IMG/VR virus record: IMGVR_UViG_3300014325_000006
Span: 1 to 48,032 of that record
Length of the DNA: 48,032 bases
Direction: 5' to 3' (one strand)
Source of the DNA: a virus
A program made the translations under genes and the position numbers. The notes under the pieces were generated by a model. That model had not been told where the DNA came from. It made no database searches and saw only the letters and a list, made by a program, of their open reading frames with translations. This document shows positions 2,853 through 35,409 of this stretch, piece by piece. Every line of letters starts with the position of its first letter. Within the stretch, counting starts at the first letter, position 1.

Positions 2853-2858
2853 AGTCGC

Positions 2859-2887
2859 GGGGGGCTGGGGCCGCATCCTGGCCCCCC
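2859..2887 (+). terminator. GC-rich hairpin after the capsid gene
   Basis: A 12-pair stem (six G-C pairs at the base, with G-U pairs above) and a 5-base loop CCGCA start seven bases after the capsid stop. No U-tract follows, so partial termination or protection of the capsid mRNA end is as likely as full termination. Confidence 0.6.
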
Positions 2888-2909
2888 ATCTCTCTCGGAA
2901 AGGACAGCC

Positions 2910-3476
2910 ATGCGATTCGTCTCCCAGTTCCAGGGCTACGGAACCCAGATTCGCGTTCAGCGCCAGCGGGCGCTTGGCGACGGCGGTGTCGAGGTCTTGC
3001 AGGAAGGTCTGTACGTCCAGTTCGTCCCCGTCCACGCGGGCGGGATGCTGTACGAGAACGAGCGCCGCCACGCGCTCGACCACTTCAACTTCCGGGGCAA
3101 CACGCAGGACATCGGCGAGGCGATCCCGACAGACCCGGTGCAGCGCCTCGCCATCTTGGACACCGATGAGATGGCCGCTCAGGAGAACTGGTCGGACGCC
3201 GACAAGCAGCTCGTAGAGGACCGCCTGTGTGAGCTGGCGCTGACCACGCCACAGGAGGTTCTCCTCGTCGCCGACACCCCGATCACCAAGCCCTTCCCGA
3301 ACTACGACAGCTTCGACGGCGATCCCACCGATCTCGTCGTCAAGCTCATCGAGGACGGGTTCGACCTGGAGTACGTCCTGCACTACGAGCGCACCTTCGG
3401 CCCGCAGCGCACGCCCGTCATCGAGGCGCTGGAGAACGCGCTGGAGGTTCAGCGCGAGCAGGTCATCACCGCGTGA
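2910..3476 (+). CDS. Head or neck protein, unknown family
   Basis: 188 residues, ATG preceded by AAAGGA at 9-base spacing. It starts with a compact basic region (RFVSQFQGYGTQIRVQRQRA) and turns acidic after residue 60. No transmembrane or nuclease motif is visible. It sits just after the capsid gene and overlaps the next start by four bases, so it is probably a virion protein. I cannot assign a function. Confidence 0.75.
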   Translation: MRFVSQFQGYGTQIRVQRQRALGDGGVEVLQEGLYVQFVPVHAGGMLYENERRHALDHFNFRGNTQDIGEAIPTDPVQRLAILDTDEMAAQENWSDADKQLVEDRLCELALTTPQEVLLVADTPITKPFPNYDSFDGDPTDLVVKLIEDGFDLEYVLHYERTFGPQRTPVIEALENALEVQREQVITA

Positions 3477-3865
3477 GCCGTATCTGGACACCCCCGGACC
3501 CGGACGACTGGGGAGTAGTCCAGGATGTCGAGCCAGCCGAGCGCCAGCGGCAGCTCCCGGATGGGCGGCTCATGCAGGAGTCGCGGCTCACGCTCTCGCC
3601 GCACGCCATCGAGCGCCTCTGGCAGGGGTACATGTGCGCGGTCTGCCTGGAGGAGCTGGACGAGGCGTACCCGGAGTTCTGCCCGAACGCCTGGTGCCGC
3701 TTCCCGATCCGCGAGCAGCAGCGCAAGCAGCTTGAGCAGGACTTCGTGGGCCAGCATCCGGGGCTGGTGTCAGGCTTCCCGATGGACAGGGAGCTGGATC
3801 ACCTGGAGCGGGTTGCCCACCAGAAGAGGCCGATGATGACAGTCCCGAAGGAGATCAAGCCATAG
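3473..3865 (+). CDS. Small Cys-containing protein
   Basis: A 130-residue protein starting with GTG inside the last codons of the preceding gene. Residues 55-76 hold a C-x2-C...C-x4-C pattern (CAVCLEELDEAYPEFC then NAWC), suggesting a zinc-binding loop. The C-terminus PKEIKP is encoded by DNA that also contains a strong Shine-Dalgarno (AAGGAG at 3848-3853) for the next gene. Role unknown. Confidence 0.7.
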   Translation: MSRIWTPPDPDDWGVVQDVEPAERQRQLPDGRLMQESRLTLSPHAIERLWQGYMCAVCLEELDEAYPEFCPNAWCRFPIREQQRKQLEQDFVGQHPGLVSGFPMDRELDHLERVAHQKRPMMTVPKEIKP

Positions 3866-4299
3866 CCACGACCTCCCAGTGGTACGCGCAGGCAGGCGGC
3901 CTTCTGATCGCCCGCCTGTGGACGCCCCAGGACATGCGGGTGATGCTGATGAAGCCGACGTACACGCCGGACATCGACGTGAATCTGCGCTACTCGGACG
4001 TGAACGGGCAGGAGGTCGCAACGGGCGGCGGGTACTCGGCGGGCGGGAAGTCGCTCACCGGCAAGTCGGTGTCCTACGACGCGGCGGCGAACGAGTACAA
4101 CCTGCTCGCGGCCGACCTCTCCTGGGGGCCGGGTGCGACGTTCCAGACTCGCTACGGGGTCGTCTTTGAGTGGGACACGACCGACAAGTTCCTGTGGGCG
4201 CTCCTCGACTTCGGCGCTCTCCAGGACATCACGAACGGCACGTTCCTGCTCGACTGGGCCACGAACCTCCTCGCCATCGCCGCAGGGCCACCCGTGTAG
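3862..4299 (+). CDS. Small virion-type beta protein, apparently starting at ATA
   Basis: The frame reads ATTSQWYAQAGGLLIARLW from codon ATA 3862, then VMLMKPTYTPDIDV and GGGYSAGGKSLTGKSV. This matches a widespread phage family of about 130-150 residues with a VML...YTPD...GYxxGG pattern, found near tail-fibre genes. The first ATG (3934) would delete the conserved N-terminus and has no usable ribosome site. ATA 3862 has AAGGAG at 8-base spacing and overlaps the preceding TAG, like the usual ATGA overlap. From ATA the product is 145 residues. The start is inferred, the frame is firm. Confidence 0.72.
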   Translation: MATTSQWYAQAGGLLIARLWTPQDMRVMLMKPTYTPDIDVNLRYSDVNGQEVATGGGYSAGGKSLTGKSVSYDAAANEYNLLAADLSWGPGATFQTRYGVVFEWDTTDKFLWALLDFGALQDITNGTFLLDWATNLLAIAAGPPV

Positions 4300-4308
4300 G
4301 TCGCCCCG

Positions 4309-4899
4309 ATGGGGGCCGTCTACACACCGATCTGCGGGCAAGTCCTCTGCGGGCAGACCCGCGTAGCGACTTGGATCGCCAAGGAGGGGCGCTCCACCCT
4401 CGTCCTCAAGCCGAGGACGTTCTCCATCACGATCACCGAGGGGCCGATCATCACCCTCACGGTCAACCGCCCCGTCCTCTTCCTGAACGCCAAGAGCTTC
4501 GCCAAGCAGACGGACACGACCAAGGCCATCGGGCGTTCCGTCCTCATCCTCCGGGGCAAGCCCTTCGTTATCCAGCCGTTCCTGAGCGTGGTGCTGAACG
4601 CGCCGCGCCTGTACCTGCGCGGGAAGGCCGTTCTCCTCGGCCTCTCAGCGCAGCTTCAGTTCGGCAGGCCGAGACTGATCCTCCTCGGAGGGAGGCTGGA
4701 GCGGGTGGGGCGAGCGGGACTCATTCCCACGGTGCCCGAATCACGACCCCTAGTGCCCACCACGCCGGGGTCGGGCACGCTCGTCCCCACCGCGCCCGCC
4801 TCGCGCACGCTCATCGCCACCGCGACCGGCACGTCCACGCTCGTCCCCACCGACGAGGAGTCGGAGCTTCTGGTGCCGACGACGGTGGAAGTCCGGTAG
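4309..4899 (+). CDS. Beta-strand repeat protein with Thr/Pro tail, probable fibre or decoration
   Basis: 196 residues. The first 145 alternate short strands of the type RxLxLRGKxF or RPVLFLNAKSF. Residues 147-196 form about five degenerate 10-residue repeats ending in LVPT (SRPLVPTTP, SGTLVPTAP, SRTLIATAT, TSTLVPTDE, SELLVPTT). Such repeats are typical of extended stalks in phage fibres. It lies at the head of the fibre cluster. No catalytic motif is seen. Confidence 0.65.
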   Translation: MGAVYTPICGQVLCGQTRVATWIAKEGRSTLVLKPRTFSITITEGPIITLTVNRPVLFLNAKSFAKQTDTTKAIGRSVLILRGKPFVIQPFLSVVLNAPRLYLRGKAVLLGLSAQLQFGRPRLILLGGRLERVGRAGLIPTVPESRPLVPTTPGSGTLVPTAPASRTLIATATGTSTLVPTDEESELLVPTTVEVR

Positions 4900-4917
4900 C
4901 CCCGCGAGAATGACTGC

Positions 4918-5796
4918 GTGAGTACCTACGTCCCGACTGACTGGGTTGACGGCACGACGCCGCTCGATGAAGCGCATCTCGACAAGATCGAGCAGGAGCT
5001 TGTGCTGCTCGACGGGCGCAAGGTTCCCGCCGTCGCGGGGCAGGACGGCAAGTGGCTCACCGTCGCGGGCGGGGCGATGGTGTGGGCAGCCGCACCCGCT
5101 GGCGGTGGCGGTGGCCTCGACTGGGAGGGCGCGTACGGCGCAGCCACCCCCTACGTCAAGGGCGATGTCGTCACCTACGGCGGGGTCGTGTACGGAGCGG
5201 TCAACGACTCGACTGGGCAGACGCCGCCCCCTGCCACGCCGGTCTACCCGAACTTCACGCCGCTGCCGCTCCTCACGGCGCTCCCGTCCTCACCTTTCGA
5301 CGGGCAGCAGATCATCCTCACCGACTCACTGACCGCACCGACGTTCACCTGGCTCCTCCGCTACGTCGCGGCCAAGGCGAGCAACAAGTGGGTGTTCATC
5401 GGTGGTGCCCCAGCCGTTACCGAAGTTCTCACATCCGAAGCTCTCGCCGGTTCCGCGAACACCTACAACGCACCGCCGACCGCAGGGCCGAACTGGACGA
5501 TTCCCGTGTCAGGCGACTACCTCGTCGCAACCAGCCATCACTTCACAGCCGTCTCCGGGGCGGGGAAGGGGTACATGTCCTACGACATCGGTGCAACGGG
5601 GGCTGTCGATGCGGATGCGTCGTCTGCGTTCTCCAGTTCCCCTGGCGACACGATGATGACGTACCGAGAGCGGCGAAAGACAGGGCTGGTGGCCGGGACT
5701 GTCCTCACCGCGAAGTACAAGCAGGGTGGCAATAACACGGGCGGGACGATCTCCACTCGCGCAATCATCGCCCGACCGATTGCGGTGGGCGGATGA
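4918..5796 (+). CDS. Fibre-type protein 1 with chitin-binding-like module
   Basis: 292 residues from GTG 4918. Residues 70-105 contain W-x2-A-Y...Y-x-KGDVV-x-Y-G-x-VY-x-A (WEGAYGAATPYVKGDVVTYG), the signature of carbohydrate-binding module family 5/12. Residues 118-158 form a module ending W-x-LRYVAAKASNKWVFIGG that recurs in the 6626 gene. The C-terminal part is a beta-rich domain (WTIPVSGDYLVATSH) typical of C1q-like tips on actinophage minor tail proteins. It probably contacts host surface sugars. A GAGAAT box six bases upstream suggests a leaderless promoter. Confidence 0.78.
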   Translation: MSTYVPTDWVDGTTPLDEAHLDKIEQELVLLDGRKVPAVAGQDGKWLTVAGGAMVWAAAPAGGGGGLDWEGAYGAATPYVKGDVVTYGGVVYGAVNDSTGQTPPPATPVYPNFTPLPLLTALPSSPFDGQQIILTDSLTAPTFTWLLRYVAAKASNKWVFIGGAPAVTEVLTSEALAGSANTYNAPPTAGPNWTIPVSGDYLVATSHHFTAVSGAGKGYMSYDIGATGAVDADASSAFSSSPGDTMMTYRERRKTGLVAGTVLTAKYKQGGNNTGGTISTRAIIARPIAVGG

Positions 5797-26319: not shown

Positions 26320-26343
26320 GGGGGGCTGAGAGATCAGCCCCCC
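26320..26343. terminator. Hairpin after the M41-like gene
   Basis: Ten-pair perfect stem (G-rich then CTGA / TCAG then C-rich) with GAGA tetraloop, 14 bases after the leftward stop at 26358. No U-tract. Confidence 0.6.
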
Positions 26344-26357
26344 TCGCACATCCCCGG

Positions 26358-26786
26358 TCATGCAAGGGCCAGAGTCACCGTCCCTTCCGCCATGAGGCGG
26401 TCGGTGAGATCGGCGATCTCGACCCAGTGGTCATCGACCATGTTCACGCAGAGGTCGTAGACCTCATCGAACGTGATGCCGTGTCGGCCCGCGATCTCAT
26501 AGGCGAGGCTGGCCTCCATCTTGGCGTACCTGAACAGCTCCTTGTCGGAGCGGTGCGTGTCCAGGAGAGAGGGAGCGGCCATCGCCACGCAGATCGCAAG
26601 GCGATCCCGCTCCATGTCGAGCTTCTCGTCGGGAATCTTGACGGCGGCAACGAAGTTGATCCCTTCGTCGTAGCCGTCCTCGATAGTGACCCACTCGACG
26701 GGTAGCCCCATCTTCAGCGCCACGATGGCGTGGGTCGCCTCATGCTCGGCGACTCGTCGCCGATGCCAGTGAGGGTCTGTCGTCAT
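26358..26786 (-). CDS. M41-like HExxH metallopeptidase-fold protein
   Basis: 142 residues from ATG 26786. Residues 13-24 AEHEATHAIVAL hold H15-E16-x2-H19, matching the FtsH (M41) zinc motif. A later helix (KMEASLAYEIAGRHG) resembles the region supplying the third ligand. The AAA+ and membrane parts of FtsH are absent, so it is a stand-alone domain, as in some actinophages. It could cleave a host or phage protein or act as a decoy. Its ATG overlaps the stop of the 26783 gene (ATGA). Confidence 0.72.
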   Translation of the reverse strand: MTTDPHWHRRRVAEHEATHAIVALKMGLPVEWVTIEDGYDEGINFVAAVKIPDEKLDMERDRLAICVAMAAPSLLDTHRSDKELFRYAKMEASLAYEIAGRHGITFDEVYDLCVNMVDDHWVEIADLTDRLMAEGTVTLALA

Positions 26787-26932
26787 GCGTCTCCCTTCCG
26801 TCGGGTCTTCTTACACTCGCCCTCGTAGCAGTACCGCTCGTTCGTCCAGCGCGAGAAGACGTACCTCTCCTGCGGCAGTCTCCTGCCGCATCTCCCGCAC
26901 CGGAACTTGCTGAGCTTCTGCTTCGCAGGCAT
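26783..26932 (-). CDS. 49-residue zinc-ribbon protein
   Basis: Short gene coupled at both ends: its ATG overlaps the stop of the 27189 gene (TGATG) and its TGA overlaps the M41-like start (ATGA). The sequence has C12-x2-C15 (FRCGRCGRRL) and C35-x4-C40 (YCYEGECKK), a compact zinc knuckle. Its last codons also encode the start-associated sequence of the next gene, so that signal is translated here. Confidence 0.68.
   Translation of the reverse strand: MPAKQKLSKFRCGRCGRRLPQERYVFSRWTNERYCYEGECKKTRRKGDA
26791..26806 (-). promoter_or_regulatory. Start-associated sequence, 26786 gene
   Basis: Read leftward: CCCGACGGAAGGGAG, within the 3-prime end of the 26783 gene. ATG follows after four more bases. 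Confidence 0.7.
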
Positions 26933-27189
26933 CACGCTGCCTCGGCGTACCGAGTCACATCCCAGGTGTCCAACGACTCAACGATCTCGATGACGAGATC
27001 GACCTTCGTGGCCGGACTCAGGGTCGTGGCGAGCATCGTCCGATGGACGAGTGCCCGCATCAGCTTCGTGTGGGCCTGCGCCCACGCCGCAGCCGGGTCA
27101 TCGGGGTCCGTGTCCGTGTCGAACAGGATCGTGCGGACCTCCTTCGTCACCGGGTCCTGGAACCCGATGGTGGTGCGCTGGGAAGCCAT
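26932..27189 (-). CDS. Small protein, unknown function
   Basis: 85 residues from ATG 27189. It begins with a beta-hairpin-like stretch (RTTIGFQDPVTKEVRTILFD), followed by helices (AAWAQAHTKLMRALVHRTML, KVDLVIEIVESLDTW). It lies downstream of the HNH-repeat gene and behind its own start-associated sequence. No family recognised. Confidence 0.68.
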   Translation of the reverse strand: MASQRTTIGFQDPVTKEVRTILFDTDTDPDDPAAAWAQAHTKLMRALVHRTMLATTLSPATKVDLVIEIVESLDTWDVTRYAEAA

Positions 27190-27208
27190 AGGCTCCTCCT
27201 GTCTGTCG
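27182..27208 (-). promoter_or_regulatory. Start-associated sequence plus start-codon hairpin, 27189 gene
   Basis: Read leftward: CCCGACAGACAGGAGGAG, then stem GGAGCC / GGCTTC with loop TAT. The ATG begins in the loop. This is the leftmost of nine such arrangements. Confidence 0.65.
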
Positions 27209-27302
27209 GGGTAGGGCTGAGAGCGCCGATCCGGGGTTGGTTCGCCGGGGCATCGCAGCCAAGTCAGCTTCTCACCCACTCGCCGACCGGCGCTCTCATG
27301 GA

Positions 27303-27893
27303 CTAGTCGTCCCATCGGGACTGACTTCTTACGCGCTCCCTGTATCGCCGTTGTGATGCTCGTCTGCAAGCGAGACATAGACGAGCGCCGGACGACGTGA
27401 CGAGGATGTTCTTCTTCACCCAAGGGTGAAGACCATTCCGGCACGTTTCGCCACGGCGGATGCGCTTCGACCTCTGGCTCTCCTTGTGGAGAGAGGTCAC
27501 GTTCCAGCCCTTCGGGCTGGAGAATCCAGCAGCACGAAGGGCTGCTCCCCATGAGCCGAAGTGACTCTTCACGGGGCGGACGCTCGGACGGAGTTCGTCT
27601 CCGCGTGTCCGCTCCCAGTCCCTTCGTCTCGGGGGACGACCGTGGGCTTCCGCCCACTCTTGCATCGCCGCCACGATCATCTCGGGTGTCCACATGTCGA
27701 GCTTGTTGCGGCGCTTGGCCTCGATGAGGCAGCTCCGCGAGCAGGTCCAGCGATGCTGTCCTGCCGCGTTGCGCGGACAAGGATTCCCACAGATGACGCA
27801 TGAGCGAAGCGGTCGTCTCTTTGGGTCGGGAGAGGGGTTCCCGCCGAAGCGAGAACCCCGTGTCCCTACGCCGCGACTGCGATTCGTTCCCAT
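27303..27893 (-). CDS. DNA-binding protein with homing-endonuclease-associated repeat and two zinc knuckles
   Basis: 196 residues from ATG 27893, the only start that keeps the first zinc site. It lies 28 bases inside the upstream gene and lacks a ribosome site. C-x2-C...C-x3-C (SCVICGNP, WTCSRSC) opens the protein. The middle (MIVAAMQEWAEAHGRPPRRR, DW, RPSVRPVKSHFGSWGAALRA) matches the HNH-associated repeat that binds DNA. A second site follows (CRNGLHPW...CLACRR). No HNH catalytic core is visible. A regulator or a nuclease remnant is possible. Confidence 0.68.
   Translation of the reverse strand: MGTNRSRGVGTRGSRFGGNPSPDPKRRPLRSCVICGNPCPRNAAGQHRWTCSRSCLIEAKRRNKLDMWTPEMIVAAMQEWAEAHGRPPRRRDWERTRGDELRPSVRPVKSHFGSWGAALRAAGFSSPKGWNVTSLHKESQRSKRIRRGETCRNGLHPWVKKNILVTSSGARLCLACRRASQRRYRERVRSQSRWDD
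27834..27859 (-). terminator. UUCG-capped hairpin after the DUF932-type gene
   Basis: On the leftward RNA an 11-pair stem (GGGGTTC, a T-G pair, CGC) closes a TTCG tetraloop, seven bases after the stop at 27866. It lies inside the first codons of the next gene. The T-G pair exists only in the leftward strand, which suggests it acts there. Confidence 0.55.
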
Positions 27894-28957
27894 TCGCGGG
27901 TCGAAGTCGTCGCCAGGTCCCAGCCCATCGCTTCCATCTCGACGCGACGGTCGAAGGATTCGACCGTCTGGGCCGCTGACGTGATTGCATTGAGGCAGCC
28001 CCACCTAGTGAAGTCCCCGTTGGACGCGAGGCTCGTCAGGACTGCTTCCTTCTCTCCATCGGAGAGTTCGTACGTCTTGGCAAGCCGCTCGGTGGCGGCG
28101 ATGGGAGCCGTGATCGTGGCACCCTCCGTCGTCAGACGAAGCGACTGAACGACCGTCTCAAACTGCGTCTCCGAGATGGCGTTCCGAAGCTCGTCCCGAG
28201 CTGCCAGCCAGAACGCACGGTCGTCGGCGCGGATCGCCTCGTCGGAGAGATGCTCTCCGAGACGCTTGCCAACGTGACGTGCGCTCATCACCTTCGCCAC
28301 GACCATCCCGTTCAGGCAGACGAGTCGCATGACGAAGCTGTCGATGCTGAACTGTCCAGCACCGACCTCGCTGTTGCTGATCTGGACTCCCCACTGGACC
28401 GGATCGCCGAGGCGAACCTCCTTCTCCATGCGGGGGAACACGGCGCGGAGGTAGAACCTCTCGTCCGTGATGGAGGCGTTGTGGAACTTGACCTCCGTGT
28501 CGAGGCGGTCGAACTCGGGCAGCAACTTCGTTGCTACCTCGATGTTGTCGAGCCTCCTGTACCGATCCGAGAGCCACGCCCGACCAGTGGCGTAGCCACT
28601 GTCGTTCTTCCTGGCCCGGATCATTCGGCGGTTCGGCGTCTCGTACATCCAGTGATGCACGTTCTCGCGGAACAGGCCCGGAGCTTCGACCTTCATCCGG
28701 TCGAAGTACCGCTTCGGGATGCCGAGATCGGTCGCCATCTGACCGAGGGCGTGATCGGAGAGACGGAACGTCTCTGACGAGAAGTCCTGCGTCTGCGCCG
28801 GGTCACGATCCACGGACAGGAGAACGTGAGGGGCTTCGCCCTCCTCGCGCTCCTCAGTGGCGACGGACATGCGCCGAGAATCGGCGAGGAGATCGAACTT
28901 CCTCGCGTCCTCGGCCAGCACCCTCTCGATGAGGGTGTCCAGTGTGTCGATGACCAC
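27866..28957 (-). CDS. DUF932-type phage/plasmid protein
   Basis: 363 residues from GTG 28957. Recognisable DUF932-like stretches: LSDHALGQMATDLGIPKRYF, ENVHHWMYETPNRRMIRARK, GRAWLSDRYRRLDNIEV, GDPVQWGVQISNSEVGAGQF and RLVCLNGM. The family is widespread on plasmids and phages, and its biochemical role is not established. Length is close to usual. It is downstream of the HTH regulator gene and has its own start-associated sequence and start hairpin. Its coding DNA is hairpin-rich, for instance the 10-pair stem at 27946-27968. Confidence 0.78.
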   Translation of the reverse strand: MVIDTLDTLIERVLAEDARKFDLLADSRRMSVATEEREEGEAPHVLLSVDRDPAQTQDFSSETFRLSDHALGQMATDLGIPKRYFDRMKVEAPGLFRENVHHWMYETPNRRMIRARKNDSGYATGRAWLSDRYRRLDNIEVATKLLPEFDRLDTEVKFHNASITDERFYLRAVFPRMEKEVRLGDPVQWGVQISNSEVGAGQFSIDSFVMRLVCLNGMVVAKVMSARHVGKRLGEHLSDEAIRADDRAFWLAARDELRNAISETQFETVVQSLRLTTEGATITAPIAATERLAKTYELSDGEKEAVLTSLASNGDFTRWGCLNAITSAAQTVESFDRRVEMEAMGWDLATTSTREWERIAVAA

Positions 28958-28978
28958 AGGTCATCACTCCTTCCTGTC
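28949..28978 (-). promoter_or_regulatory. Start-associated sequence plus start-codon hairpin, 28957 gene
   Basis: Read leftward: CGACAGGAAGGAG, then perfect 7-pair stem GATGACC / GGTCATC with loop TGT. The start GTG spans loop and 3-prime arm. Confidence 0.75.
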
Positions 28979-29185
28979 GGTTCGTGCGAGTACCTCGTCC
29001 TTGTCCCACAGGGGCGAAGCCCCTGTCTTGTGGACGACGGGTTCTGGGAGGCGTCCGTCCTTGACCATCCGAGCGACGGCGGGCCTCGACCTAATGTCGA
29101 GAAGCACCTGTAGCTCAAAGCGGTCGATGAGACGCCTCGATGCCTCCTCCCGAAACTTCTCGGGAGAGAGGACGACTGTTGGCAT
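28964..29185 (-). CDS. Small HTH (MerR/excisionase-like) DNA-binding protein
   Basis: 73 residues from ATG 29185. The core LLDIRSRPAVARMVKDGRLP, then EPVVHKTGASPLWDKDEV, matches the helix-turn-helix type found in AlpA/excisionase and MerR-like regulators. A helical N-terminus (EKFREEASRRLIDRFELQV) precedes it. A perfect 22-base palindrome covers its promoter, so it probably regulates itself and the leftward genes behind it. No integrase is present, so a pure excisionase role is unlikely. Confidence 0.72.
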   Translation of the reverse strand: MPTVVLSPEKFREEASRRLIDRFELQVLLDIRSRPAVARMVKDGRLPEPVVHKTGASPLWDKDEVLARTDRKE

Positions 29186-29190
29186 ACGAT

Positions 29191-29206
29191 CCTCCTTCCT
29201 GCCGGT
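29191..29206 (-). promoter_or_regulatory. Start-associated sequence variant, 29185 gene
   Basis: Read leftward: ACCGGCAGGAAGGAGG, one base off in the GAC core. ATG follows six bases later. No start hairpin. Confidence 0.7.
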
Positions 29207-29219
29207 AGGTACGTTGCAC

Positions 29220-29225
29220 AGTATA
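29220..29225 (-). promoter_or_regulatory. Extended -10 promoter of the HTH gene
   Basis: TATACT read leftward, preceded by TGG (extended -10). It overlaps the left arm of the 22-base operator palindrome and has no good -35. Repression by a protein bound at the palindrome would block it directly. Confidence 0.5.
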
Positions 29226-29244
29226 CCACGTTACAACGTGGTAT
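29223..29244. promoter_or_regulatory. 22-base operator palindrome
   Basis: Ten-base arms ATACCACGTT / AACGTGGTAT are perfect around a 2-base centre. The element overlaps the -10 box of the HTH gene. The half-site TATACCAC recurs at 35380-35387, before the rightward ribbon-helix-helix candidate gene. Confidence 0.7.
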
Positions 29245-29280
29245 GGAGGCGTGGCCTCCCGACCCCTCTCGATGAGAGGG
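29245..29280. terminator. Two adjacent hairpins upstream of the operator
   Basis: GGAGGC / GCCTCC with loop GTG (29245-29259), then CCCTCTC / GAGAGGG with loop GAT (29264-29280). They lie just after the stop of the small membrane gene at 29290 and would separate it from the HTH promoter. Confidence 0.55.
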
Positions 29281-29289
29281 ACCGGCAAG

Positions 29290-29436
29290 TCAGACCTGCT
29301 TGCGTTTCCGGGAGCGCCGCCTGTCCCACCTGTCCATGAGCCACACCCTCAGAAAGAGGGCGGGCCAGAACAGGAAGTTGGCGGCGATCATCCAGAGCGG
29401 GTCCTTCCAAGGAAGGAGCCAAGGCCAGCCGCCCAT
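29290..29436 (-). CDS. 48-residue Trp-rich membrane peptide
   Basis: ATG 29436 lies 18 bases past the stop of the 29454 gene. The peptide has a Trp-rich start (GGWPWLLPWKDPLW), a hydrophobic helix (MIAANFLFWPALFLRVWL) and a strongly basic tail (RWDRRRSRKRKQV), giving a clear inside-positive topology. The only Shine-Dalgarno-like GGAGGGG lies far upstream. The composition makes it credible as a gene. Function unknown. Confidence 0.5.
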   Translation of the reverse strand: MGGWPWLLPWKDPLWMIAANFLFWPALFLRVWLMDRWDRRRSRKRKQV

Positions 29437-29453
29437 GAGGAGGGAGAGGAGCG

Positions 29454-29963
29454 TTAGCTCCCCTCCGTGACCTCGGTGACGGCGGTTGCGGCCTCGGCCT
29501 GCTCGACCCGAGCGACGAGTCCTGCGATGCGGCTCGTCGCCTCGGAGAGGCGGGCCTCCATCGAAGCGAAGCTGTCGAAGACGAACTCGACGGCCTCCCT
29601 GACCTCCTCGTCGTCTCCAGAGGAGACGAGTCCGGTCAGAATCTCCCTCGCTCTGTCGAGCGTCATCGGGATGACGACCTTCTCGATCTCGGTGCGGACG
29701 TTCACAGCCTGCCAGGTGATGCCCGAGTCGTCCTCGACCTCCATGCCGTCGTAGACGGCCTGACGTGCTGTCTCCTCGGCCTCGTCCTCGTCCTCGGCCT
29801 CGACCGTGAACGCGATGGAGCCGCCGTAGCACTCGACCGGATTGTCCTGGAAGTACGAGGAATCCTCGTAGTCCTCGACGCCATCCGGCTCATCGAACCG
29901 GACGCCCTCCGGGCTGATGCTCGTTTCCAGATCGAACTCGATCTGGACGTTGAAGCGTGGCAT
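29454..29963 (-). CDS. Acidic protein, unknown function
   Basis: 169 residues from ATG 29963. Residues 1-75 are very acidic with aromatics (IEFDLETSISPEGVRFDEPD, AEDEDEAEETARQAVYDGME). The C-terminal 60 residues form a likely coiled coil (MEARLSEATSRIAGLVARVE). Acidic small phage proteins sometimes mimic DNA, but no specific family is recognised. Confidence 0.65.
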   Translation of the reverse strand: MPRFNVQIEFDLETSISPEGVRFDEPDGVEDYEDSSYFQDNPVECYGGSIAFTVEAEDEDEAEETARQAVYDGMEVEDDSGITWQAVNVRTEIEKVVIPMTLDRAREILTGLVSSGDDEEVREAVEFVFDSFASMEARLSEATSRIAGLVARVEQAEAATAVTEVTEGS

Positions 29964-29984
29964 AGCCACTCCCTTCTGTCGGTG
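29957..29984 (-). promoter_or_regulatory. Start-associated sequence plus start-codon hairpin, 29963 gene
   Basis: Read leftward: ACCGACAGAAGGGA, then stem GTGGC / GCCAC with loop TAT. The ATG begins in the loop. Confidence 0.72.
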
Positions 29985-30046
29985 TGGTGCTGACTGCACC
30001 GTAAAGCCCCGGCTTGCCGGGGCTTCGTGCTGCGGTCGAGCTACTC
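29984..30046 (-). repeat. Intergenic cassette, copy A
   Basis: The flank GTGGTGCTGACTGCACCGTA and the far flank CGTGCTGCG...AGCTACTC are shared with 31152-31212, while the hairpin between them differs. Both copies lie between a stop codon and a start-associated sequence. Confidence 0.7.
30004..30025. terminator. Hairpin terminator in cassette A
   Basis: Nine-pair perfect stem AAGCCCCGG / CCGGGGCTT with loop CTTG. On the leftward strand it ends in CTTT, giving a short U-run. Confidence 0.7.
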
Positions 30047-30490
30047 CTGGCCCATCATGTCGCCGACCGGGCGGGGGATCAGAGTCCTGACCTGATCCAG
30101 CGCCCTGTCGAGGTCGTTGCTGAACCGCTTGAGCCACTTGGCGCGGCTCTCGGTGGTGACATTGGCCGTCAGGCCAATGTGGGCGACGACCTCCTCGGGC
30201 GTGATGAAGGCGGCGTACCCTTCGGGTCGCTTGCCATCGACCTCGGCCCGAATGAGCATCGCTCCATCGAGTCTCTCGATGAAGCGGAGCCGAGCGAAGA
30301 ACTCGGCAGCGTTCTCTCTGGTGATGCCAGAGAGTCCGACGCTCATGGTCGCCCAGATGAGGGCGTTCGTGACCGGATTCAGCATCCTGTCGCCCTTGGC
30401 GACGAACTGCGACGGGATGTCGCAGGGTGCCTCCATGTAGCAGACTGAATCCCAGTCTGCGATCTTGTCCAGCGTCCAGTTGAGACTCAT
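30041..30490 (-). CDS. Unknown helical protein
   Basis: 149 residues from ATG 30490, overlapping the stop of the 30756 gene (ATGA). Predicted alpha-rich with a basic C-terminal segment (TTESRAKWLKRFSNDLDRAL). A central FFARLRFIERLDGAMLI stretch could be a strand-helix core. The coding DNA contains a 9-pair hairpin at 30159-30180 and an 8-pair one at 30440-30460. No family recognised. Confidence 0.65.
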   Translation of the reverse strand: MSLNWTLDKIADWDSVCYMEAPCDIPSQFVAKGDRMLNPVTNALIWATMSVGLSGITRENAAEFFARLRFIERLDGAMLIRAEVDGKRPEGYAAFITPEEVVAHIGLTANVTTESRAKWLKRFSNDLDRALDQVRTLIPRPVGDMMGQE

Positions 30491-30756
30491 ACCTCGTCGT
30501 CCTCCTCAGCCCCTTCGGGGCCGTCGTAGTAGTGGATGTCCATGCCGCGCTCCTGTGCGTTGGCGCAGGAGTCACACTGGTAGCCCGAGGCGGCATCCCT
30601 GGCGGTCAGCCTGTTGGGCCAACCGCAGGTTGGGCAGGGCAGGTTCCGGGGGTTGTCCCGTCCTGCGACGTGGAGCGCCGAGTCCCCTCCGGGGTCGGCG
30701 AACCGCTCCACCCTGTCGGCCCACTCCTCGTCGTCGTAGTAGTCGTCGTAGGGCAT
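30487..30756 (-). CDS. Zinc-ribbon protein with acidic ends
   Basis: 89 residues from ATG 30756. N-terminus MPYDDYYDDEEWADRVERF is acidic and aromatic. The middle holds CPTCGWPNRL and CDSCANAQ, a zinc ribbon, and the tail is EGAEEDDEV. It is the first gene of a two-gene unit with the 30490 gene. Function unknown. Confidence 0.68.
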   Translation of the reverse strand: MPYDDYYDDEEWADRVERFADPGGDSALHVAGRDNPRNLPCPTCGWPNRLTARDAASGYQCDSCANAQERGMDIHYYDGPEGAEEDDEV

Positions 30757-30778
30757 TGGCCCTCCTTCCTGTCGGTTC
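30750..30778 (-). promoter_or_regulatory. Start-associated sequence plus start-codon hairpin, 30756 gene
   Basis: Read leftward: ACCGACAGGAAGGAG, then stem AGGGC / GCCCT with loop CAAT. The ATG overlaps loop and 3-prime arm. Confidence 0.7.
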
Positions 30779-30786
30779 GGGGGGAA

Positions 30787-30807
30787 CCCCCTCAAAGAAC
30801 GAGGGGG
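30787..30807. terminator. Hairpin after the 30824 gene
   Basis: Perfect 7-pair stem CCCCCTC / GAGGGGG with a 7-base loop, 17 bases beyond the leftward stop. Confidence 0.6.
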
Positions 30808-30823
30808 ATTCCTCCCGGTGTGG

Positions 30824-31129
30824 TCAGACTGTCCTGCCGCCTCGCGCCCTCGCTGCGGCGTAGTCGGCCTCCGCAGAGCGGAGGGCGGCGTTGGCGTTGT
30901 CGAGGATGCGCTGGGCTGTCTCGTCCTGTCCCTTCTGGGACAGGAGGTAGCCCCGGTCGTACTGCTTGCGGTAGATGGCGCGAGCAGCGTCGAGACGACG
31001 CTGGGCCTCGTCCTGGACGATGACCCTCGTAGCGCCCATCTGGATGTAGAGGGGCGCGGTGTCCGGCTTCGTGTGACCACCCTCGCACTTCGGGTAGTCG
31101 CACTCCGGGCAGCGTTGTGTCGAACACAT
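30824..31129 (-). CDS. CxxC protein with long helix
   Basis: 101 residues from ATG 31129. MCSTQRCPECDYPKCEGG gives a four-Cys zinc knuckle near the N-terminus. Residues 40-95 form one long helix (DEAQRRLDAARAIYRKQYDR, ADYAAARARGG). It lies between the glutamine amidotransferase and the 30756 zinc-ribbon gene. Function unknown. Confidence 0.65.
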   Translation of the reverse strand: MCSTQRCPECDYPKCEGGHTKPDTAPLYIQMGATRVIVQDEAQRRLDAARAIYRKQYDRGYLLSQKGQDETAQRILDNANAALRSAEADYAAARARGGRTV

Positions 31130-31150
31130 AGTGTTCGCTCCTTCCTGTCG
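31121..31150 (-). promoter_or_regulatory. Start-associated sequence plus start-codon hairpin, 31129 gene
   Basis: Read leftward: CGACAGGAAGGAG, then perfect 7-pair stem CGAACAC / GTGTTCG with loop TAT. ATG starts in the loop and its G is the first base of the 3-prime arm. Confidence 0.78.
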
Positions 31151-31151
31151 A

Positions 31152-31212
31152 GTGGTGCTGACTGCACCGTAGAGGGCACCTTCGGTGCCCTCCGTGCTGC
31201 GTTCAGCTACTC
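31152..31212 (-). repeat. Intergenic cassette, copy B
   Basis: Same flanks as 29984-30046 but with a different central hairpin. It joins the stop of the amidotransferase gene to the start-associated sequence of the 31129 gene. Confidence 0.7.
31172..31192. terminator. Hairpin terminator in cassette B
   Basis: Nine-pair perfect stem GAGGGCACC / GGTGCCCTC with loop TTC. It is related in sequence to the 19510 terminator. Confidence 0.65.
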
Positions 31213-32247
31213 GGCATCCTCATCGAGGATGGCCGCGTTCACGGCGTCCCAGGACTCGTACACGATGTCAGCCTGTCGGCTGATCTTCGGCACGCCGTCC
31301 ATCTCCCACAGAACGTCGCAGTCCTGGCAGAGCTGGTACGTCGTCTTGTCCTCGTCGTCCCAGCGGTACTCCATCTCCTTCCAGGAGATGACGGTGCCGC
31401 AAGCGTCACAGTCGAGGGTGTCCTCCTCGCGCTCCCAGCTCAGAGAGCTGGTCGTGGAGGCGGGGACCTGCGGCGTCACGTCCTTCCAGGGAAGGACGAG
31501 GTTCGTGCCCTGCCAGGTCTTCACCTTCGGTGGGCTGTACGGCTTGAACGACTTGCGAGTCAGCTTCCCGTCCTTGAAGTGCAGGACGGTGCCCTGCTTG
31601 ACCTGCTCGATCTTCTGCCTCTTCGGCAGACGACCGATGTGGGCCTCGTACGCCTCCTTGACGGTGGCAAGCGTGCTGCCCCAGAGGACGTACCGCTTCG
31701 TCGTCAAGACGAAGAGAGGCGACTGGTGGCCTCGGGCCAGGACCAGCTCGTCGGGACGATTCTCGTCCACGACGGCGATGGCCGCTGCCCCTTCGATCTC
31801 ACTCATCACCTTCGGTGCCGCTCCGAGCTTCCCGAGGCTCGCAAAGCGAGCCGGGATGGCTTCGGAGTCCACCTGGCCGTACCGCACCCGACCGGCAAGC
31901 TCAAAGAGCTTGTGGTCGTTGCTGACATGGCCGTTGTGGATGGCGTAGAACGACCCCCTCTTGAGGGGGTGATTGTTCTCCACGAAGGCAGGCAACCCTT
32001 GGGTTGCCCAGCGAGTGTGGGCCAAGATCGTGCGAGTCCCCTTCGGGACTCGGCGGCGGTACTTCACGAAGTCCCGCACGTCACAGGCGGCCTTCTGCCA
32101 CTCCGTGACCCCCTCGTCGCCAAGAGCGACGAAGCCTGTCGCGTCCCCACCACGATGCTCGATCTCATCGAGCATGGTGTCGAGGATCGCATCGAGATCG
32201 GCCTTCGCCTTCGGGTCACGAAGGTATACGCCAGCGATTCCACACAT
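31207..32247 (-). CDS. Class II glutamine amidotransferase
   Basis: 346 residues from ATG 32247. C2 follows the initiator Met (MCGIAGVY) and is the expected N-terminal nucleophile. H77-T-R-W-A-T, N-N-H-P at 91-94, N105-G-H and D127-S-E-A complete the GATase class II (Ntn-hydrolase) signature. These enzymes release ammonia from glutamine for a partner synthetase. The C-terminal 80 residues add a zinc ribbon (CDACG, CQDCD). No synthetase domain is fused. The adjacent amidoligase gene (33614) is the likely functional partner. Confidence 0.88.
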   Translation of the reverse strand: MCGIAGVYLRDPKAKADLDAILDTMLDEIEHRGGDATGFVALGDEGVTEWQKAACDVRDFVKYRRRVPKGTRTILAHTRWATQGLPAFVENNHPLKRGSFYAIHNGHVSNDHKLFELAGRVRYGQVDSEAIPARFASLGKLGAAPKVMSEIEGAAAIAVVDENRPDELVLARGHQSPLFVLTTKRYVLWGSTLATVKEAYEAHIGRLPKRQKIEQVKQGTVLHFKDGKLTRKSFKPYSPPKVKTWQGTNLVLPWKDVTPQVPASTTSSLSWEREEDTLDCDACGTVISWKEMEYRWDDEDKTTYQLCQDCDVLWEMDGVPKISRQADIVYESWDAVNAAILDEDAE

Positions 32248-32269
32248 AGTGTGGCTCCTTCCTGTCGGG
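32240..32269 (-). promoter_or_regulatory. Start-associated sequence plus start-codon hairpin, 32247 gene
   Basis: Read leftward: CCCGACAGGAAGGAG (exact consensus), then stem CCACAC / GTGTGG with loop TAT. The ATG begins in the loop, as in the 31129 gene. Confidence 0.78.
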
Positions 32270-32307
32270 TATTCGGCTCGTAGAGCCGGGAGGTATTGCC
32301 CTCCGTA

Positions 32308-32330
32308 AAGCCCCGGCAAAGCCGGGGCTT
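32308..32330. terminator. Hairpin terminator between amidoligase and amidotransferase
   Basis: Ten-pair perfect stem AAGCCCCGGC / GCCGGGGCTT with loop AAA. A second hairpin (GGGGCT / AGCCCC, 32341-32355) covers the amidoligase stop codon. Confidence 0.7.
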
Positions 32331-32345
32331 ATTGCAGGGCGGGGC

Positions 32346-33614
32346 TTACAGCCCCGGTGAGCGTCCTGCCGCTTCCAGGATCGTGTCCTTCTCACCTTCG
32401 GTGAGAGGCAGGATGTCGAGCAGATGGTTCAGCACTTCCCGCTTCTCCTCACGGGTCGAAGACCCGTATTCGTTCACGGGGAGCGTCCCCAGCTCATGCC
32501 TCTTGGCATGAGCCGTCATGGCGTGAGCGAACAGCAGCCATGCGTGGATCGTGCGAGGCAGCGTCGAGGAGTTGAAGACCCTCCATTCGACGGTTGCACC
32601 GTCGAAGGCTCCGCAATCGCAAGCCTCCCAGTCGCCCATCGTCGCTGCTCCACAGGAGCAGCGGGAGACGGCCGAGTAGAGCCGCTGGAAGTTCAGACCG
32701 AAGTATCGGTCTGAGCGCATGACTCGCCACACCTTTGCTGCTCCAGCAGCACCCTCCACCTTGGGCACGGGCTTGCAGTAGCCCGAGTAGGAGTCGGCAG
32801 GCTGCCGGTGCCGCTGCCATCCGGCAGCGGAGAACGAGTAGAGCATGTCCTCGGCATAGCTCCACAGCTCGTAAAGAGCTGCCATGTCCCGAGCGCCGAA
32901 GCCAGTCCCGTCCTCGGCGTTAGCCGAGATGTGGACGTGGATGCCTGCGGCGTACGAGGTCGTCACTGGACGACCTGGCGTGTCCCGGAGCTGACGAATC
33001 TTCGTCAGAGCCAGCGACAGAGCCGTCGAGTGACCGTCCTGCGAGAGGTTGAAGCGGTCGAAGACCACTTCACCACCGGCATCCGGCAACGAGCCGTCCT
33101 CCTCGACGTGTGCCCTGCCACGGCGGGAACCGCCGTAGTGGTACTGCACCTTCCCTGGCTCATCGGCTACGCCGATGTCGTAGAGAAGCCGAGCGACCAT
33201 CGTTCCGCCGCTCGCCAGCTCTTGCTCCAAGGAGCAGAGCCGCGCAGGGCGGCCTTCGATGGCAGGAACGCTGACCCTGTAAGGGTCATCGACCGGGGCG
33301 AGGTACGGCATCTCACCGTGGAACTCCTCTTCGGAGTTACAGCAGTCGTATGCCTCCTCGTCGGAGCCATGCTCCGACCCACAGTCGGCGCAGTAGTAGC
33401 GATGCTCCGCATCGCAGTCCTCGCAGAGCGAGCCGCCGTAGTTCTCGTTGTAATACAACGAGTCCGACGAGTCCTGCCGATTGCCACAGCAATCGCAGTA
33501 GACGGCGCAGCACTCCTCAGCATCGCTGAGGAACTCATGCCCGCTGCCACACTCGGCACACGGGTACAGCTCCTCTTCAGCATCTTCGATGCTGGATGTG
33601 AGAACGTCAGGCAC
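32346..33614 (-). CDS. Amidoligase (Amidoligase_2-like) with N-terminal zinc-ribbon array
   Basis: 422 residues from GTG 33614. Residues 17-95 hold eight or more CxxC-type pairs (CAECG, CCAVYCDCCG, CEDCD, CADCG, CC), a zinc-ribbon array. The catalytic region carries E130-Q-E132 (SLEQELASGG), E171-E-D-G-S-L-P...GGE182 and H226-V-H228 (AGIHVHISA), the signature of glutamine-synthetase-fold amidoligases. These join an amine to a carboxylate using ATP. The neighbouring glutamine amidotransferase could supply ammonia. A role in modifying cell wall or a peptide is inference. The coding DNA is the densest hairpin region of the genome. Confidence 0.82.
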   Translation of the reverse strand: MPDVLTSSIEDAEEELYPCAECGSGHEFLSDAEECCAVYCDCCGNRQDSSDSLYYNENYGGSLCEDCDAEHRYYCADCGSEHGSDEEAYDCCNSEEEFHGEMPYLAPVDDPYRVSVPAIEGRPARLCSLEQELASGGTMVARLLYDIGVADEPGKVQYHYGGSRRGRAHVEEDGSLPDAGGEVVFDRFNLSQDGHSTALSLALTKIRQLRDTPGRPVTTSYAAGIHVHISANAEDGTGFGARDMAALYELWSYAEDMLYSFSAAGWQRHRQPADSYSGYCKPVPKVEGAAGAAKVWRVMRSDRYFGLNFQRLYSAVSRCSCGAATMGDWEACDCGAFDGATVEWRVFNSSTLPRTIHAWLLFAHAMTAHAKRHELGTLPVNEYGSSTREEKREVLNHLLDILPLTEGEKDTILEAAGRSPGL

Positions 33615-33639
33615 CTTCGGTGCCTCCTTCCTGTCGGGG
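33610..33639 (-). promoter_or_regulatory. Start-associated sequence plus start-codon hairpin, 33614 gene
   Basis: Read leftward: CCCGACAGGAAGGAG, then stem GGCACC / GGTGCC with loop GAA. The GTG start lies in the 3-prime arm. Confidence 0.75.
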
Positions 33640-33665
33640 TGTTGCAGAGGTTGGAACCCTCCGTG

Positions 33666-33686
33666 CAGGGCGGCGAAGCCGCCCTG
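33666..33686. terminator. Hairpin upstream of the amidoligase leader
   Basis: Nine-pair perfect stem CAGGGCGGC / GCCGCCCTG with loop GAA, 14 bases after the stop of the 22-residue peptide gene. Confidence 0.65.
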
Positions 33687-33699
33687 GGTGCAAGGTTCT

Positions 33700-33768
33700 C
33701 TACCTGGATGGCAGAGCGAAGACCGTGGCGTAGAACGCCACGACGAGCGGGATGATGAGCAAGCTCAT
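33700..33768 (-). CDS. 22-residue membrane peptide
   Basis: M-SLLIIPLVVAFYATVFALPSR: one hydrophobic helix and a basic end. Its ATG overlaps the TGA of the 17-residue peptide (ATGA), and that peptide overlaps the 33994 gene, so three frames are chained. Such chaining supports real translation despite the size. It could be a membrane effector, a lysis-related peptide or a substrate for the amidoligase downstream. Confidence 0.45.
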   Translation of the reverse strand: MSLLIIPLVVAFYATVFALPSR

Positions 33769-33818
33769 TCGCACGCCGCCCACATGAGGCAGAAGACGAT
33801 GAGCAGACCGAGCCACAT
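33765..33818 (-). CDS. 17-residue hydrophobic peptide
   Basis: MWLGLLIVFCLMWAACE, starting inside the stop of the 33994 gene (TGATG) and ending inside the start of the 22-residue peptide. It is nearly all hydrophobic with two Cys. It may be a true microprotein or simply a coupling device that carries ribosomes to the next start. Confidence 0.4.
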   Translation of the reverse strand: MWLGLLIVFCLMWAACE

Positions 33819-33994
33819 CAGACCGTCACTCCCTTCGGGAGTGTCTTCAGCCACGCCTTCTCAGCTCTACGAGCTGAGCGGACGAGCTGTCGAGTGGCGA
33901 TCCTCACGTCGTCGGATACTCCGACGCTGACGGGTGGGCGGAAGGCACCGAAGGTGCCCGTGGCCGCGACCCTGCCGTGATGTCTAGCCTTCAC
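33818..33994 (-). CDS. 58-residue basic protein, first gene of the leftward unit
   Basis: GTG 33994 behind a start-associated sequence. The protein is basic (MKARHHGRVAAT, RIATRQLVRSARRAEKAWLK) and probably binds nucleic acid. As the first gene of the leftward unit it could be an early regulator. Given the start-hairpin architecture downstream, an RNA-binding role is an attractive but untested idea. Confidence 0.55.
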   Translation of the reverse strand: MKARHHGRVAATGTFGAFRPPVSVGVSDDVRIATRQLVRSARRAEKAWLKTLPKGVTV

Positions 33995-34015
33995 AGAAGG
34001 CTCCTTCCTGTCGGG
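33986..34015 (-). promoter_or_regulatory. Start-associated sequence plus start-codon hairpin, 33994 gene
   Basis: Read leftward: CCCGACAGGAAGGAG, then perfect 7-pair stem AGCCTTC / GAAGGCT with loop TGT. The GTG begins in the loop. Confidence 0.78.
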
Positions 34016-34531
34016 AACGTCCCCAGAGGGGACGGGGCGTCGAAACCCAGAGCCGCTCAGCGCAAGGCTGGGCGACTCAAGGAGTCGCTGCACATGTCCA
34101 TGTGTAAGCCGTGAGCGTTTCCGCTCCAGGACACCTTCGGTGTCGTCCTGCCGGTTTCGCCTCTTCCGTGCATCCGCTCCTAGCGCAACCGGCTCCGACG
34201 CCTCTCAGCGTCTTCCACCTTCGGTGCAGCGCCACAGAACGGACGGTTCAGCGACCTGGCAGGACACCTACGGTGTCCCACGACTCGGGGATTACGAGGC
34301 GACTCGGCATCACGCTTGACCATGCCCATTCACGGCCTACGGCTCGGGAGCCTCGACCCAACCGGCTTTCGGGCTGTCCTCACTTCGTGAGTTCCCGATG
34401 CCCCGGCTGGGGAATCCCACTCTGCATAGCCCTGGCAACGGTGTCAAGGGTGGCAGGGTGCTTCTCAACACAAACGCAACATTCCAGCCCCGTAGGGGCT
34501 GAGCATCCGGCGAGCGGCGTATGATGCGTAG
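34016..34531. other. Divergent control region with hairpins, no convincing gene
   Basis: The gap between the first leftward gene (33994) and the rightward gene at 34532. Perfect hairpins occur at 34072-34088 (GCGACTC / GAGTCGC), 34130-34144 (GACACC / GGTGTC), 34262-34278 (GGACACC / GGTGTCC) and 34486-34500 (AGCCCC / GGGGCT). A 137-codon frame each way was rejected. It may hold the leftward early promoter or an origin, but I cannot point to a clear -35/-10 pair for the leftward side. Confidence 0.6.
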
Positions 34532-34534
34532 GTG
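34520..34534 (+). promoter_or_regulatory. Possible leaderless promoter of the 34532 gene
   Basis: TATGAT (34520-34525), six bases, then GTG. No Shine-Dalgarno is present. The same spacing occurs at 10771 and 38411. Confidence 0.5.
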
Positions 34535-35119
34535 ACGGACGCGCCACACCTGAGCGTCGTGGACGCAGATTCGCGGCCGTCGAGCGGGACGGTGGACACA
34601 CTCGCCGACTCGGCGCAGGAGGCTGTGGAACAGCCCGCGTACGGAGTCCGAGCGACCGCGCAGGGTCCGAGGGGGTGCTGGGCGCTCAAGCGGGACGGGA
34701 CGGCTTGTGCAGCTCCATCCCGAAGGGATGCCGACTACTGCGCCGCTCACTCGGGACTTGGCGTAGCCAAGAGTCCTGCCGAGTGGTCTGCGATTGGGAA
34801 CGCGGCGAGCGTCGATTCTCGCCGAAGGCGAGCCACCCTGCGACTTGCACTCGGCAAAGCAGGGCTGAACACTCCTAGAGGAGTGTTGAAGGCGGCGGTG
34901 ATGGTCGAAGCGGAGCGGGTGGCGGCCGCCGCTTTAGCGGGCATCGACCCCTCGGTGCCACCGGCTCAGCGAAGCAGAGCCGCCCTCGCGCTGCTGGACG
35001 CGACCGACCCTCTGCTGCAAGCAGAGCTATCCCTACCCCTCCCCTCCAACCCCGAAGGGGTTGAGCAGATGGGCTTGGAAGAACTCAAGGCACTTGCTTC
35101 GCAAGTGGGGATCGCATAG
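34532..35119 (+). CDS. Zinc-motif protein, possible small terminase or DNA-binding protein
   Basis: 195 residues from GTG. Residues 49-73 carry CWALKRDGTACAAP and CAAHSGLG, a C-x8-C...C-x2-H zinc site known from actinobacterial phage and plasmid proteins. The C-terminal region (RAALALLDATDPLLQAELSL, GLEELKALASQVG) resembles the ends of some small-terminase-like proteins. It lies about 10 kb from the large terminase, so the terminase link is weak. The coding DNA is hairpin-rich. Confidence 0.6.
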   Translation: MTDAPHLSVVDADSRPSSGTVDTLADSAQEAVEQPAYGVRATAQGPRGCWALKRDGTACAAPSRRDADYCAAHSGLGVAKSPAEWSAIGNAASVDSRRRRATLRLALGKAGLNTPRGVLKAAVMVEAERVAAAALAGIDPSVPPAQRSRAALALLDATDPLLQAELSLPLPSNPEGVEQMGLEELKALASQVGIA

Positions 35120-35409
35120 GCGCGATTCGGCTCGGCTGAGCCAAGTCCACCCGGAGGGTGGGGCATCCCCCGCGTTTGGGCGCGAGCGCGTGAGCCTCTC
35201 CTAGGGGGAGGCGTTTCTGCAAGCGCCAGCCCTCTGAGAGCCTCCCACACAGGTAGCTGCCAATCCGCCGCATTGACGCCTAGCCGCCTAGCTGAGAGAG
35301 GAGCGCGACCCACCGCAAAGAGTCGCGCTCACCCTCCCAGCCTCTCCCCCGCTTCCCCTCTGCCGGGGGGTGTACGGGTATACCACATAACTAGTAGACT
35401 GGTGTACCT
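35120..35409. other. 290-base gap with hairpins
   Basis: No gene seen. Hairpins: GGCTC / GAGCC, CCACCC / GGGTGG, GCCTCTCC / GGGGGAGGC (35202-35220), a 9-pair stem GAGCGCGAC / GTCGCGCTC (35301-35309 with 35322-35330), and a C-rich/G-rich pair just before the promoter region of the 35410 gene. The 9-pair stem may terminate the 34532 transcript. The hairpin block ends here. Confidence 0.6.
35378..35400 (+). promoter_or_regulatory. Promoter-operator region of the 35410 gene
   Basis: GTATACCACATAACTAGTAG followed by ACT gives a TAGACT box (35395-35400), 9 bases before ATG. The half-site TATACCAC (35380-35387) is shared with the 29223 operator, suggesting control by the same HTH protein. No Shine-Dalgarno is visible. 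Confidence 0.45.

Follow-up and report, generated by a model that had tools for sequence, protein, structure and literature searches.

An amidoligase and class II glutamine amidotransferase gene pair in a hairpin-dense region of an uncultured phage lineage

The window analysed here is the whole of the 48,032-base IMG/VR virus record IMGVR_UViG_3300014325_000006, in which an amidoligase gene and a class II glutamine amidotransferase (GATase) gene sit within a leftward run of small genes (Table 1). With a capsid, portal and terminase that are only distantly related to those of sequenced phages, the window represents a deep, uncultured lineage. A megablast of the module region against phages gave no match, and a tRNA search of the 48,032-base window gave no tRNA genes. 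The leftward run also holds a DUF932 protein (27866-28957, - strand; PHROG 1362, of unknown function), which is shared by gut and marine phages and by numerous mycobacteriophages. Zinc-ribbon-like Cys-x2-Cys motifs were observed at three places, namely the GATase C-terminus (31207-31410, -), a downstream protein of 90 aa (30487-30759, -) and the amidoligase N-terminus (33390-33560, -).

Table 1. Genes, micropeptides and hairpin features at the locus, in positions of the window.
Feature	Position	Strand	Basis
Hairpin field: perfect hairpins at high density and regular spacing, spanning the leftward gene run plus the first divergent + strand gene	26320..35161	.	hairpin counts against nulls
Free-standing class II glutamine amidotransferase, 346 aa, ATG start at 32247; GlmS glutaminase-like domain (about residues 1-240) and Cys-x2-Cys C-terminus	31207..32247	-	ORF, Pfam, PHROGs, alignment, predicted fold
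Hairpin ccacac-TAT-gtgtgg enclosing the GATase ATG start, directly after GACAGGAAGGAG	32240..32254	-	sequence
Amidoligase_2 protein, 422 aa, GTG start at 33614; Cys-rich (zinc-ribbon-like) N-terminus and GS/YbdK-type ligase domain	32346..33614	-	ORF, Pfam, PHROGs, alignment, predicted fold
Hairpin aggcacc-GAA-ggtgcct enclosing the amidoligase GTG start, directly after GACAGGAAGG	33609..33625	-	sequence
Hydrophobic micropeptide of 22 aa, MSLLIIPLVVAFYATVFALPSR; its start overlaps the stop of the 17-aa micropeptide	33700..33768	-	read from sequence
Hydrophobic micropeptide of 17 aa, MWLGLLIVFCLMWAACE	33765..33818	-	read from sequence
Protein of 58 aa with a GTG start inside a hairpin; its stop overlaps the start of the 17-aa micropeptide	33818..33994	-	read from sequence

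The preliminary description had recognised the amidoligase by its motifs SLEQELASGG, EEDGSLPDAGGE and HVH; the ORF and all three motifs were confirmed in place, and the profile search gave the same identity. The protein scored 22.6 bits against the Pfam model Amidoligase_2 (PF12224), a narrow pass of the curated cut-off of 22, and 24.3 bits 'with its neighbours in the frame'; the amidoligase of the related locus L002 fell just under the cut-off (19 bits). The PHROGs match is 'amidoligase enzyme' (2.8e-5), concordant with the predicted fold. The predicted structure (mean pLDDT 83.8), searched with Foldseek, matches YbdK-type and GS structures with E 1e-4 to 1e-3, probability 1.00 and TM about 0.34-0.37 (0.33-0.39 over its structural matches as a whole), PafA and Dop being matched more weakly, and its BFVD matches include phage amidoligases. 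Since the TM-scores are low, E-values, motifs and homologues had to be taken jointly for the fold assignment. An alignment of 45 phage homologues showed E130, E132, D173, E182, G224, H226, H228, R270, R303, E343 and R345 to be invariant, and the ExE, D, E, HxH, R and ExR residues among them are as expected for a predicted GS/GCS-type active site. The window amidoligase is thus assigned as a divergent Amidoligase_2 member with a GS/YbdK-like predicted fold.

The zinc-ribbon array attributed to this protein corresponds to a Cys-rich, zinc-ribbon-like N-terminus, most of whose Cys are invariant in 6 relatives. It is through this part that the family profile matched, weakly, mainly zinc-finger-type proteins. 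With the amidoligase as query, tblastn against phages at E 1e-3 and phmmer against the PDB returned no match, and a scan of genome contigs with the lineage amidoligase confirmed a bacterial relative in no case. One locus (L012) carries tandem amidoligase ORFs before the GATase (2263-3096 and 3232-4998), the second with a Cys-containing N-terminal extension.

The downstream gene had been read as a free-standing class II GATase with C2, HTRWAT and NGH, and this reading was upheld for the ORF, for the motifs and, in the profile search, for the family: Pfam GATase_6 matched with E = 2e-18 and PHROGs with 'glutamine amidotransferase' at 2.3e-29, together with a GlmS-type fold and an intact catalytic set. 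Invariant in 24 homologues are C2, H77, T78, R79, T82, N105, G106 and D127, a pattern matching the class II active-site set, i.e. an N-terminal Cys nucleophile, HTR..T, NG and D, equivalent to C1, R73, N98, G99 and D123 of GlmS. In structure the model comes closest to the glutaminase domain of GlmS (1.3e-15), with EgtC (4zfk, E 1.3e-10, TMt 0.75) as a further match; in sequence, too, GlmS glutaminase domains are nearest. Judged by these residues, the active site is intact, of the GlmS glutaminase type, and activity is predicted.

From a profile scan of viral contigs we took the 80 best GATase loci and searched upstream of the GATase with a profile made from five amidoligases and iterated on these loci. 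Wherever the upstream sequence exceeded about 0.6 kb, it held an amidoligase on the same strand; the 8 of the 80 loci without one all have a GATase frame that starts no further than about 0.54 kb from the sequence end. The co-occurrence in relatives on which the preliminary description had staked its proposal therefore holds wherever the upstream sequence is long enough. As the 80 loci were ranked by similarity to the window's GATase family and redundant loci are included in the count, this conservation applies inside that family rather than to phage GATases in general. Both genes occur in identical order, with 61-71% identity, in the relative IMGVR_UViG_3300032261_000018, and the arrangement is likewise found in Arthrobacter phages Ottawa and Wheelbite and in Pseudomonas phage LUZ24. 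The amidoligase-GATase pair is a real module, adjacent, in fixed order and on one strand across many phages. These observations suggest that the conserved core in these phages is the pair, rather than a larger cassette, frequently accompanied by single-span micropeptides, and they offer a minimal unit for testing wall or peptide modification.

Directly upstream of the module, two hydrophobic micropeptides had been noted as possible substrates or membrane partners. Both exist, in overlapping TGATG/ATGA junctions. Hydrophobic small ORFs of 27 and 51 residues lie at the equivalent place in L002, and L010 has a single-span micropeptide of 31 residues; in low-GC relatives, a micropeptide family ...INYWSIIDGRxLLL... 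lies between amidoligase and GATase and a family MYLGTGDIIATIIALLGALTVMG... after the GATase. In L053, L064, L072 and other low-GC loci, micropeptides of about 30-40 and 53-58 aa flank the GATase, between the genes and about 1.2 kb after the GATase start. These two recurring flanking families are possibly conserved membrane partners of the module. In a set of 22 dereplicated loci, the density of hydrophobic small ORFs per kb of free sequence is 0.59 close to the module and 0.11 elsewhere; the micropeptide events number 11 near the module, all on the same strand, vs 3 elsewhere. This excess, although small in numbers, favours a membrane-associated role of the module. The role of membrane partners is therefore moderately supported by the same-strand recurrence of small ORFs beside the module; that of conserved substrates was rejected, since the sequences are not conserved between lineages.

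The two genes lie in a field of about 9 kb (26.3-35.2 kb) in which perfect hairpins, defined as stems of at least 6 with loops of 3-8, are roughly 3-10 times as frequent as in shuffled controls (codon-preserving or dinucleotide). Against dinucleotide shuffles we counted 58 hairpins vs 5.7 at 31.0-34.3 kb and 52 vs 10.6 at 26.3-31.0 kb, the remainder of the window being at 0.8-1.9 times expectation. The density peaks over the amidoligase and GATase genes at 14-20 per kb. In shuffles that preserve the protein and its codon usage, 3.3 ± 1.6 hairpins are expected in the amidoligase gene, which has 23, and 4.0 ± 2.0 in the GATase gene, which has 17. Gene by gene, the divergent + strand gene at 34532-35119 shows an excess (8 vs 1.2), and so do the genes between 33994 and 26358, two short ones weakly, beyond which it fades. 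Arm sequences of the 111 hairpins in 26.3-34.3 kb share no common motif, and the loops are mostly of 3 or 4 bases.

The hairpin excess was likewise present in the relatives L002, L008, L009 and L010. Despite the same enzymes, it was not clear in L011, Ottawa, Wheelbite and LUZ24; the hairpin field is thus a property of the lineage, separate from the enzyme pair. The trait was seen in the groups L002/L091/L093, L008/L094, L009/L097-L098 and L010/L100 and is absent from G005/L011. Four related contigs show a steep field edge followed by decay over about 8-10 kb. Among stem pairs in which both bases changed between relatives, 45% of cells still pair, vs 20-29% in slid controls and 31% in the hairpin-free relative L011, in a comparison of five sequences with kinship uncorrected.

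Several simpler origins were considered. The codon-preserving shuffles, together with L011, Ottawa, Wheelbite and LUZ24, exclude a by-product of the enzymes' amino acids; a terminator scan of 33.6-35.2 kb found zero intrinsic terminators; one repeated operator is ruled out by arms that share no sequence, and a field beginning exactly at the leftward promoter by the covered divergent + strand gene, up to 35161. A search of Rfam with 18-40 kb of the window gave nothing at the gathering threshold.

Hairpins also mark gene starts. Both the amidoligase GTG (33614) and the GATase ATG (32247) are preceded by GACAGGAAGGAG, and a start-codon hairpin is present in 5 of the 7 leftward genes with the GACAGGAAGGA element. 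At 28978, 31149, 32266, 33635 and 34012 (all - strand), GACAGGAAGGAG is followed immediately by a hairpin of 6-7 bp with a 3-nt loop that contains or overlaps the start codon. The arms differ at each of these five sites, the pairing being always kept.

On balance, we lean towards the view that some 9 kb of genes, the amidoligase and GATase included, has been selected to form evenly spaced perfect hairpins of 6-10 bp whose sequence keeps changing, whether the DNA is coding or not, several start codons lying inside them. These hairpins would act either at the level of mRNA, through protection, anti-termination or control of translation, or at that of single-stranded DNA. Such an architecture was not found described for a dsDNA phage: narrow term searches of the open-access literature recognised no earlier report of dense hairpins in phage coding sequence, and with a check of this limited extent 'undescribed' is to be taken as provisional. 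If confirmed, the field would be a finding of another kind than the enzyme pair, the synonymous codons of phage genes being apparently spent on structure every 45-50 nt or so.

At the RNA level, it is conceivable, and we put it forward tentatively, that early transcripts carry beads of hairpins which shield them from nucleases, Rho or antisense, or which are bound by a phage factor. Equal hairpin densities in coding and non-coding sequence (13.8 vs 14.4 per kb), a field that extends over two divergent transcription units, thinning out along the longer of them, and the compensatory changes in stems are consistent with it, as are predicted 150-nt RNA folds about 8 kcal/mol more stable than those of control regions of the window. 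On the sense strand, UNCG tetraloops are more frequent than their complements (11 to 1), as are GNRA ones (25 to 15), in small numbers on which codon effects are possible; the triloops, on the other hand, are nearly strand-symmetric (GNA 63, TNC 72), and sense and antisense folding energies hardly differ. Moreover, the test for G-U tolerance was negative, G-U not being in excess over A-C in kept stems (39 vs 44). C-G-closed loops of the GNA type are exceptionally stable in DNA mini-hairpins. Strictly Watson-Crick stems that do not tolerate G-U, nearly strand-symmetric loops with a C-G closing pair in 192/281 triloops and with GNA or its complement TNC in 135/281, and an extension over the divergent region rather than one transcript would all fit hairpins of DNA. 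Such hairpins could arise while the DNA is single-stranded, close to an origin or a divergent promoter, or could be a product of template-switching repair, which turns quasi-palindromes into perfect ones. The DNA reading, too, we regard as a possibility to be held with reserve. Neither the even spacing (54% of inter-hairpin gaps are of 15-40 nt vs 34% under random placement, the largest simulated value being 41%) nor the compensatory upkeep is an obvious outcome of a mutational process alone, and an origin was not identified.

Considering the locus as a whole, the explanation that we find best, and fairly probable, is a phage amidoligase-GATase module working as one ammonia-donor and ligase pathway and encoded in a hairpin-array operon. 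Both enzymes would act in one coupled pathway: the GATase, by its Cys2 nucleophile, would free ammonia from glutamine, and the amidoligase would use ATP, via an acyl-phosphate on a (probably glutamyl) carboxylate, to form an amide with that ammonia or another amine. The pair is probably used to modify host cell material. More tentatively, the target may be a precursor of the host envelope or a glutamyl peptide located at the membrane, the adjoining single-span micropeptides may serve as membrane tethers, and the wall of the infected cell might thereby be altered, for instance against superinfection; the wall is a plausible target by precedent. Against this explanation, the full cassette's other enzymes (ATP-grasp, GGCT and COOH-NH2 ligase) are unrecognised among the window ORFs scanned, the amidoligase's structural matches have low TM-scores, and the proposed tethers reflect a micropeptide excess of few events, with peptides that vary among lineages.

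The main rival to ammonia-donor coupling, which we judge rather unlikely, is a ligase and hydrolase pair of the EgtA/EgtC kind, in which the group added by the amidoligase, a glutamyl or one like it, would be stripped off again by the GATase-fold enzyme, a metabolite being protected, activated or recycled. EgtA is a GCS-fold ligase and the partner of EgtC, and the GATase fold matches EgtC, a hydrolase, as well as a glutaminase. The full phage cassette includes a glutamyl-removing enzyme too, gamma-glutamyl cyclotransferase (PMC3890496, PMC11945000, PMC5498523). The closest matches of the GATase are nevertheless GlmS glutaminase domains, ammonia feeders of a synthetase, and a third enzyme for a protected intermediate is unrecognised in the window. 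PafA and Dop among the amidoligase's structural neighbours and the micropeptides adjoining the module would also accord with PafA/Dop- or peptide-amidoligase-like tagging of a host or phage protein or of a micropeptide. We consider such tagging improbable: the resemblance to PafA/Dop is the weaker one, and peptides that differ between lineages are unlikely substrates.

Among known systems, ergothioneine biosynthesis likewise couples a GCS/GS-like ligase (EgtA) with an enzyme of class II GATase fold (EgtC), the structural match of the GATase; EgtC, however, hydrolyses a gamma-glutamyl bond, and no family like its partners EgtB, EgtD or EgtE was recognised in the window proteins scanned. A 'peptidoglycan modification' cassette has been published for podoviruses, LUZ24-like ones among them (PMC3890496, PMC3517423, PMC5498523, PMC11945000); its members are amidoligase, GATase, COOH-NH2 ligase, ATP-grasp enzyme and GGCT. 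In LUZ24, tf, UFV-P2, PSA-HP1 and phiEco32, Amidoligase_2 adjoins the class II GATase or is one gene from it, and the two are adjacent in the window as well; the further COOH-NH2 ligase, ATP-grasp and GGCT members were not recognised among the window ORFs scanned, in a record that may be incomplete and in which small unnamed ORFs remain. The OM43-phage paper reports amidoligase and GATase in over 30 genomes and names Iyer et al. 2009 as the source of the idea that the wall is modified against superinfection (PMC10580990). In substance the preliminary description was correct about this literature: PMC10580990, PMC5498523 and PMC11945000 present phage gene sets with amidoligase and GATase and restate the proposed wall modification or superinfection exclusion. 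Since the pair is annotated and published in other phages, that of the window is a divergent example of an already known two-gene module; the order is annotated in Arthrobacter phages, and its novelty had been overrated earlier. The analysis extends this known, apparently biochemically uncharacterised module to a deep uncultured lineage.

The Arthrobacter pairs (Ottawa gp65/gp66, Wheelbite gp93/gp94) resemble that of the window in order, strand, both families and adjacency, with an identity of 20-25% for the amidoligase and 28-29% for the GATase; unlike the window, their ligases are without the Cys-rich N-terminus and the pairs without a clear hairpin excess. MurT is related to the Mur ligases, and GatD is an amidotransferase of the class I type; these two are therefore not homologous to the window pair. 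Peptidoglycan amidation by MurT/GatD (PMC3267633) nevertheless shares its two-protein logic, a glutaminase partner beside an ATP-dependent amide-making ligase. As to the hairpins at gene starts, the start-associated sequences of Cluster K mycobacteriophages (PMC3203893) are likewise a repeated element just 5' of the start codons of non-structural genes. The Cluster K element is one conserved motif, whose extended inverted repeat was judged unlikely to form mRNA hairpins (PMC3203893), whereas in the window an SD-like GACAGGAAGGAG is followed by a hairpin of varying sequence, with further hairpins throughout the genes.
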